Positions 13,507 to 17,546 of a DNA stretch of 43,320 bases are shown here, one piece after another (positions within the stretch are counted from its first letter, which is position 1; each line of letters opens with the position of its first letter). The position numbers and the translations under genes are program-made. Location of the stretch: positions 1 to 43,320 of the forward strand of contig RXIX01000014.1 of NCBI GenBank assembly GCA_003989075.1, given 5' to 3'. A model generated the notes under the pieces. The model did no database searches and was not told the origin of the DNA. It saw nothing but the letters and a program-made list of their open reading frames with translations. The stretch comes from Candidatus Competibacteraceae bacterium. Its GTDB lineage: Bacteria; Pseudomonadota; Gammaproteobacteria; Competibacterales; Competibacteraceae.

Positions 13507-14838
13507 TTACAGCGCCACAAATGCGCCATCGACCCAGGCGCCCAGCGGTCGAAACTGCCGGCCATCCCATTCGCCAAATACCGGCAAACCCTGCCCGCCA
13601 CTCAGCGCCAGCAGTGGCCAGCCCTGACTGAATCCCGGATGACAGGGCAACAGCCGCGCCGCGCTATCGCGCAGATACCAGGTATTGGCGGCGCTGCGCG
13701 CCGGCACCACGTTATCCAGCCGTGCCGGCAGCAGGCCCAGCCAGGGCTGTTGCGCCAGGGCCCCGGCGTAAGCATCGAGCAGCGCCGCGCCATCGGCCCA
13801 TCCCGGCGGTGCCGCATCCAGAGCGGTCAGGGCACAGGCATTACGCAGCACCGCACGCAGCGGATACTGGCTGGGAAAAAAGCCCAGTTCCGCTTCCAGC
13901 CAGCTACCCGGCGCAGCCAGCGGCGTCAGGGTCTGGCTCTGGTGAGCAAAATCGAGCAGCAGCGCCAAACGGCCACAGTCGTGACCCCACAGCCAGGCGC
14001 GGCGCATGCGGATCTGCTCCTCTTCCTGCGTGTACTGACCGAGCAGCAGCCAGCGGTCGCGCACCCAGTTCCCATCCGGCACATCCGCCTCGCCCAGGGT
14101 CCAGCCGATGCGCCCACGGATATCGGCCTGCAATGTTTCGGGCAAGGTATCCAGGCGCCGATAAGCCTCCAGCAGCAGGAACAGGTGCCCCAGTTGCGCC
14201 AGCAGGCGCCCGCTCCAACCTTCACCGCTGGCAGGAATGCTGCCCAGATCGCGCAGCCAGCGCGCCAGTCCCGGAGCCTGGGCATCGACCAGCCGCGCCG
14301 CCATGTCGTGCCAGTAGCGCAGTGGCTGGCGCTGCGCCTGCGCCAGTCCCTGGCGGACCAGATCGCGCAGCCAGCGCTCCAGCTCTTCCAGGCCAGCTTC
14401 GACCTTGCGCTGCCGGGCGCTGGCCCGCTTGTCGCGGGCGACGGCGCGCTGGGCCTGCTGCTCGGGATCGAGTTCAGTCGCGGCAACGGCACGGGCGGCC
14501 TTGCGCTGGGCGTTCTGCGCCCGCTTAGCCTGCCATTCCAGCAGCCATTGCGGCGCCGGTGCGGCGGGCAGCAGACCCGGCTCATCCGCCGCCAGCAGCA
14601 GCAGCGCCAGCACATGCTTACAGGGCAACTTGCGACTCGGGCAGGTGCATTTAAACGCGGGCTCGCCGGGCTCGACGCTGATTTGATACAGCGCGCTGCC
14701 CTTGCATTCGCCCCACAGGGCCTGCTCATCGTGACCGAGCGTCAGCCATTTGGCGGGGCGCGCCAGACCGCGCGCGGCCTTGATGGACGCCTCATCAGGG
14801 GCCAGGGCGAGAACTTGGGCGGCGCTCAGAGTGTTCAT
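13507..14838 (-). CDS. SWIM zinc-finger domain protein
   Basis: This 443-residue soluble protein carries a SWIM-type zinc finger in FKCTCPSRKLPCKHVLAL (about residues 64-81), giving the canonical C-x-C-x6-C-x-H ligands. SWIM fingers bind DNA or proteins. An Arg/Lys/Ala-rich helical stretch (about 110-150) follows, then a long helical region without recognised domains. The gene is first of a two-gene unit with the DUF5691 gene, which starts 21 nt downstream. The pairing recalls the wider SWIM/DUF5691/MoxR/VWA clusters, but the ATPase and VWA genes are missing, so what the pair does here is unclear. Confidence 0.85.
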   Translation of the reverse strand: MNTLSAAQVLALAPDEASIKAARGLARPAKWLTLGHDEQALWGECKGSALYQISVEPGEPAFKCTCPSRKLPCKHVLALLLLAADEPGLLPAAPAPQWLLEWQAKRAQNAQRKAARAVAATELDPEQQAQRAVARDKRASARQRKVEAGLEELERWLRDLVRQGLAQAQRQPLRYWHDMAARLVDAQAPGLARWLRDLGSIPASGEGWSGRLLAQLGHLFLLLEAYRRLDTLPETLQADIRGRIGWTLGEADVPDGNWVRDRWLLLGQYTQEEEQIRMRRAWLWGHDCGRLALLLDFAHQSQTLTPLAAPGSWLEAELGFFPSQYPLRAVLRNACALTALDAAPPGWADGAALLDAYAGALAQQPWLGLLPARLDNVVPARSAANTWYLRDSAARLLPCHPGFSQGWPLLALSGGQGLPVFGEWDGRQFRPLGAWVDGAFVAL

Positions 14839-14938
14839 GCAGTAGGGGGCTCGGGGCAGGTCCGGCGGAGCGGTTGAACAGTGCCTTCAGTCTAGCCGTC
14901 ACCGGGCCTGGCGGGAACCCGCAGGGCCAGACGCATGA

Positions 14939-15345
14939 CTGAGTTCAGAGGTCAACTACCCCGCCCTTTAGGGCGGGGCTTGCGGCTGTGCTCGGACGGT
15001 CCCTTGTCGTCATTGCACGCTGCATTGGGCATTCAAGCATGGATTCCTGGCATAACATGCGTACCCGTTAGGTCGGTTGACACCCCGGATCAAGGGGCTG
15101 CGTTGAAGCAGAGCGACCTCGCTCTTCGTTCCGAGTCTTGATCGATTGCGACCCGTGTGGATTGCTCCACTCAGACGAACAGCGCCAGTATTTTTCTGCA
15201 CGGGAAACGGTTTACCGCGAGGGTGCCTATGTGCATTACGTCTGATTACATAGGAAGTTATGACTCAATTCAACCCAAAAGCTGACCGCGCTGTGCGCGG
15301 TGCGCTATCCCTCCCCGCCGTAAACAGCGGGGCTTCTCGCGCAAT
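14939..15345 (+). mobile_element. non-autonomous IS200/IS605-group (IscB/TnpB-type) element
   Basis: This roughly 400-nt segment has no convincing gene and is bounded by two GC-rich palindromes: an 8-bp perfect hairpin at 14959-14978 (CCCCGCCC, loop TTTA) and a 6-bp hairpin at 15313-15332 (CCCCGC/GCGGGG) followed by GGCTTCTCGCGC. Hairpins of this kind mark the ends of IS200/IS605-related transposons. The left end follows the tetranucleotide ATGA at 14935-14938, the insertion context described for HEARO elements. No transposase, TnpB or IscB reading frame is present, so the element would depend on enzymes supplied elsewhere. The exact ends are uncertain by some 10-20 nt. The remaining gene-free stretch, 15346-15488, shows nothing except possible weak promoter-like sequence for the next gene. 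Confidence 0.5.
14950..15255 (+). ncRNA. HEARO / omega-RNA-like structured RNA
   Basis: Several perfect helices can be drawn by eye on the plus strand, as expected of a structured RNA. They are 14959-14966/14971-14978 (8 bp); 15070-15075/15114-15119 (AGGTCG/CGACCT) enclosing 15083-15086/15094-15097 (CCCC/GGGG); 15157-15161/15166-15170 (GTGGA/TCCAC, tetraloop); and 15226-15232/15248-15254 (CCTATGT/ACATAGG). Length, 5' hairpin and position directly at a transposon-like left end agree with HEARO RNAs, now known as the guide RNAs of IscB nucleases. The ATG at 15260 opens only 66 codons unrelated to IscB. The strand and the class (IscB versus TnpB guide) are inferred. Confidence 0.45.
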
Positions 15346-15488
15346 TCTGGTGATAAACCAGGTGCTCCCGATCCCGTGGCTACTCCTCTGCCTGCCAGGA
15401 GAGAATTGGCGGTGCGGTCACTTGACCCATCTCTCTGCAGACCACTATGGAATTTCTTAAAATTCAATATCGCCCACCGGAGATCACC

Positions 15489-17546
<2,058 letters not shown>

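Follow-up and report, generated by a model that had tools for sequence, protein, structure and literature searches.

A nuclease-free IS200/IS605-type element with a candidate TnpB-type omega-RNA in a Candidatus Competibacteraceae genome

A stretch of 43,320 nucleotides from a Candidatus Competibacteraceae draft genome (contig RXIX01000014.1; hereafter the window) carries a segment that the initial annotation described as an orphan omega-RNA element. The analysis reported here indicates that this segment is probably a nuclease-free and transposase-free IS200/IS605 element (PATE) that has kept, and remodelled, a minus-strand TnpB-type omega-RNA, which would be used in trans. The initial annotation was correct in recognising a mobile element of the IS200/IS605 type with no nuclease gene and an omega-RNA-like structure, but the family, strand and boundaries that it assigned were wrong.

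Extent, mobility and genomic setting

A search for further copies, as recommended in the initial annotation, recovered two from the same genome, on contigs C55 and C25, in addition to that of the window (contig C14). Comparison of the three placed the boundaries of the element at 14951 and 15349, giving a length of 399 bp, as opposed to the limits of 14939 and 15345 first proposed. Since the near-identical copies (∼98–100% identity) share this interval amid unrelated flanks, the element is mobile. The draft genome comprises 278 contigs, many of which break or end inside these repeats, and copy numbers are accordingly minima. The element is non-coding and is described here on the minus strand, which is the tnpB sense. 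The structured segment is gene-free and is flanked by GC-rich palindromes, as had been described, at 14959–14978 and 15313–15332, the latter forming with a second hairpin (15280–15306) the left end of the element (15280–15349), which matches that of an intact tnpB element on contig C154. Adjoining this end is the target or TAM-side tetranucleotide (15350–15353; GTGA on the plus strand, TCAC on the minus strand), which is common to the copies and to intact tnpB elements. The minus-strand flank reads TCAC in two of the window-type copies, TCAT in the third (C25; ATGA on the plus strand) and TTCAC in tnpB elements. The ATGA originally considered to adjoin the element (14935–14938) lies 12 bp outside it, at the opposite end to the real target. 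The lack of a transposase gene, the occurrence in several copies without target duplication and the near-terminal palindromes in common with an IS605-type element are the features of a PATE.

The location initially reported, between gene groups and upstream of a YyaL-like gene, holds; a minus-strand gene (13507–14838) lies on the other side, placing the element within a divergent promoter region that extends from 14838 to 15490. A domesticated regulatory RNA or promoter element serving the neighbouring genes could feasibly occupy such a position. However, an empty site, which the initial annotation had suggested looking for, is present in four relatives belonging to one genus, in which the element is absent and ∼175–180 bp separate the divergent neighbour gene from the adjoining yyaL, as opposed to ∼650 bp in the window. 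The copies, moreover, reside at unrelated loci, and the predicted guide has no trans match in the genome, rendering domestication very improbable.

Relationship to tnpB elements and to HEARO

Over its first 70 bp the element shares 84–86% identity with the 3′ end of the genome's tnpB elements, its right end, in plus-strand terms, matches the left end of those elements, and both ends match the intact element on C154. The latter (C154:1361–2637) encodes, on the opposite strand, an intact 382-residue TnpB that contains OrfB_IS605 and TNB domains and has relatives among TnpB/Cas12f chains of solved structure. A tblastn search with this protein detected a relic of the tnpB C-terminal coding end at 14955–15041 on the minus strand (17 of 29 residues identical, E = 1e-7, one internal stop), and no tnpB relic outside the C-terminus was found in the element. 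The tnpB stop codon falls inside the terminal TTGAC in the window and C154 elements alike. The ends, the relic, the TAM-like left-end flank in common with the cognate TnpB element and the pseudoknot described below identify the element as TnpB-type, to be read on the minus strand, and it probably derives from a tnpB-bearing ancestor that lost nearly all of tnpB.

The initial annotation had also proposed that partner proteins be sought elsewhere in the genome. An intact IscB (contig C7) and the intact C154 TnpB were found, but the search of the draft genome for an intact IS200-type TnpA returned only a truncated gene (C66) and a RAYT-like gene (C147). Another genus of the family (G018, assembly JAUPTV01) has intact Y1 TnpA genes beside similar ends; there, tnpA and tnpB are divergently oriented, with tnpA directed toward the TAM-side end. 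The window genome (G000) also contains, at locus L021 (C113:8262–9073), a tnpB element of ∼808 bp with an internal deletion and a stop codon, intermediate between a tnpB element and the nuclease-free form.

The proposal that the segment is a HEARO RNA, associated with IscB, is refuted within the limits of the Rfam model. No Rfam matches at gathering thresholds were found across the window, and the HEARO model (RF02033) gave no match on the segment at E ≤ 10, nor on the locus of the element at E ≤ 1 in a run in which a HEARO element, included as a positive control, scored 125 bits. Elsewhere in the window genome the same model returned 16 matches, ten of them above the cut-off and scoring up to 130 bits, none being on the contig of the window. 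HEARO identity was rejected on this basis, the model match being absent although the positive control and other elements of the same genome score. A diverged HEARO, i.e. an IscB omega-RNA read on the plus strand, would account for the left and right outer end motifs that the element has in common with HEARO-only elements of its genome, and for a GTCAAC/GTTGAC helix near the left end that those elements also possess. Conversely, the element has no IscB frame, its sole detected protein relic being that of TnpB on the minus strand (C154 TnpB as query), the pseudoknot geometry fits TnpB, and the pattern of wobble pairs fits an RNA on the strand opposite to that of a HEARO reading. In conjunction with the missing model match, these features leave the diverged HEARO as a highly unlikely explanation. 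Orphan HEARO elements of the kind envisaged do exist on other contigs of this genome, but the window segment, without a match to RF02033, is not one of them. Two of these HEARO elements are readable in full and, at ∼417 bp, are too short to encode a nuclease, several others being cut by contig ends, whereas the C7 element combines HEARO with an intact IscB frame containing RRXRR and HNH domains. The family is large, with members on contigs C21, C96, C161, C19, C10, C75, C100, C63, C47 and C7, and consists of nuclease-free elements together with the IscB-bearing one on C7.

A separate observation concerns IS200/IS605 elements with the same ends, several of them HEARO-only, at loci L004, L028, L031, L034, L039, L042, L085, L088 and L126 of G000 and G018. 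The target ATGA at their plus-strand right end is situated exactly before the start codon of housekeeping genes, encoding SixA, NadC, ModA, MetY, GreA, a Ubi hydroxylase, malate dehydrogenase, SucC and BioD (NCBIfam; nine of ten checked), and some of the ends provide a Shine–Dalgarno-like GGAGAA ahead of the ATG; the ten start-codon loci were picked by eye, and ∼9.5% of random ATGA sites pass the ORF proxy.

RNA architecture and compensatory changes

The perfect helices counted at the outset, at least five in number, are not in themselves persuasive, since the plus-strand fold is only modestly better than that of shuffled sequences (z = −2.1), 4 of 100 of which equalled it. Their importance comes from their recurrence in homologues, where compensating changes are seen. 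On its minus strand, the element has the stem 2, stem 4 and 3′-terminal pseudoknot of a TnpB omega-RNA at positions resembling those in the solved ISDra2 RNA (PMC10097598). The right-end hairpin, an inverted repeat at 14959–14978, corresponds to stem 4, and its tetraloop occupies −20 to −17, the position found in ISDra2. The 5′ strand of stem 2/3 (15015–15023) pairs with a 3′ strand at 14982–14991, of which the stem 2 part ends at −32 in both systems (−36 to −32 here, −35 to −32 in ISDra2). The terminal GUUGAC (14951–14956), which marks the right boundary in the copy comparison, forms the 3′ strand of the pseudoknot with an upstream GUCAAC at 15076–15081 (−131 to −126), the corresponding pair in relatives being GUCAAU/AUUGAC; as in ISDra2, the pseudoknot engages the last nucleotides (the last six here) and the guide would come from the right flank. 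The window element differs from ISDra2 in having no tnpB, in a TCAC-type rather than TTGAT flank, and in the position of the upstream pseudoknot strand, which is about −105 in ISDra2. In tnpB elements this strand is at −88, inside a hairpin loop, as against −131 in nuclease-free elements. It is adjoined by a hairpin at 15083–15097 (CCCC/GGGG; CCUU/AAGG in G018), and between it and stem 2 there is an extra hairpin (GCAUG...CAUGC, 15037–15060) that is absent from tnpB elements; a different hairpin, CCGGGUU/AACCCGG, lies near the corresponding place in G018. Of the Rfam matches to the segment, the one with the lowest E value is to sot0042, a family described as TnpB omega-RNA (PMC12558985), and falls at the minus-strand 3′ end, albeit with E = 0.12 and below threshold. 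The haloarchaeal sotRNAs RF02656 and RF02657 are likewise TnpB-associated RNAs overlapping the tnpB 3′ end, and the weak terminal match is on the same strand, but falls far under the gathering score.

Across 12 sequences, comprising tnpB and nuclease-free elements, 97% of cells were paired and five pairs had changed on both sides, while slid controls were at most 48% paired; within stem 2/3, four of nine pairs showed double changes, again with 97% paired. Wobble cells outnumber A–C cells by 21 to 7 on the minus strand, a relationship that would reverse on the plus strand, which favours an RNA on the minus strand. Among the nuclease-free copies alone, four pairs had changed on both sides (two in hairpin 15083–15097, one in the pseudoknot and one in stem 2), compared with none or one in slid controls, in a small set, made up of one sequence from G000 and three related ones from G018, that represents essentially two lineages. 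These comparisons indicate that the RNA folds are kept by compensating mutations after loss of the nuclease gene.

The G018 relative is full-length, nuclease-free and 65% identical to the window element, and is present in several copies, with five right and four left ends recovered; since these are mostly at contig ends, the number of whole copies is uncertain. The interiors are homologous even on their own, with a local score of 51 as against 28 for the highest-scoring of 200 shuffles. The best conserved interior block (GGCACCC.CGCGGTAAAC.GTTTC, 15194–15226, minus strand) is 84% identical in the G018 copy; it is also present in a further genome, G020, although the omega-RNA half is missing there. 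A small plus-strand ORF (15260–15460) begins within the element and has a similar counterpart in a tnpB element; its start codon is absent from some G018 copies. When 39 genomes of the family were searched with a model of the window RNA variant (R2), full-strength hits of 143 bits or more were confined to G000 and G018, two more copies, truncated at contig ends, were revealed in G018, and no nuclease gene was found to accompany this variant among the hits. A genome-wide pattern derived from the conserved interior matched only JAUPTV01 and no viral contig, and searches of plasmids and phages returned either nothing or matches confined to the ends. The full-length relative and its homologous interior in a second genus suggest that the nuclease-free form arose long ago or was transferred from one genus to another.

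These findings bear on a simpler alternative, judged unlikely though by no means negligible, in which the element is an ordinary PATE whose end hairpins alone matter, because they are the TnpA sites, the omega-RNA-like part being passive tnpB inheritance. Going by what is known of IS608 and ISDra2, the pseudoknot, stem 2 and hairpin 15083–15097 are not TnpA sites, yet these are where double changes occur among nuclease-free copies, and homology of the interior between genera persists at 65% identity. On the other hand, the end hairpins are the best conserved parts in the comparison with G018, one stem 2 pair is broken in the window copies (an A·C mismatch), and PATEs that carry a tnpB stub are known (PMC7290912; PMC3119063). 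The PATEs of Haloquadratum and Halanaerobium (PMC3119063; PMC7290912) resemble the window element in being short and transposase-free, with near-terminal palindromes, IS605-type ends and, in one described case, a tnpB 3′ stub, but differ from it with respect to its long interior conserved between genera, its TnpB guide-RNA fold upheld by compensating changes, and its extra hairpin, which is missing in the tnpB parents.

Proposed use of the RNA in trans

While the mobility of the element, its ends, its relatedness to tnpB, and the architecture and compensatory upkeep of its RNA are directly supported, we infer the transcription, TnpB loading in trans, cleavage and retention outlined here. Since the nuclease gene has been lost but the RNA folds kept, the element probably borrows a TnpB encoded at another locus of the genome. 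Excision of the element, and its insertion next to TCAC or TCAT, would be carried out by a Y1 TnpA acting in trans. The element part of a minus-strand RNA would end at 14951 and continue into the flank as the guide; the predicted 16-nt guide flank, CUCUGAACUCAGUCAU (14935–14950, minus strand), adjoins the right end and is unique in its own genome, with no second target at ≤2 mismatches. No minus-strand promoter was found within the element. TnpB, most likely the C154 protein, which has the same ends and TAM, would be supplied in trans, load the window RNA and cut TCAC+CTCTGAACTCAGTCAT, the empty site that results from excision or exists on an uninserted sister, and repair would then copy the element back. 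In the published TnpB model, similarly, the guide sequence is taken from the flank, and the sites cut by TnpB are those without the element (PMC11870625). The C154 TnpB may not accept the window RNA, however, since the distance between pseudoknot strand and guide exceeds that in tnpB elements by 43 nt. It is conceivable, and is put forward tentatively, that the nuclease-free lineage is evolving a TnpB guide RNA of its own, released from tnpB coding and having an extra hairpin and displaced pseudoknot, and that it parasitises TnpB from elsewhere for copy-back after excision.

Three defined components are available for examining this proposal: the copy in the window, the intact TnpB of C154 and the empty site predicted for that copy. 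If use in trans is correct, then the TnpB and IscB omega systems would have taken the same step, since nuclease-free HEARO elements occur in the same genome. If the guide RNA does work in trans, RNA-guided retention would be open also to elements without a nuclease, and small elements could hitchhike.
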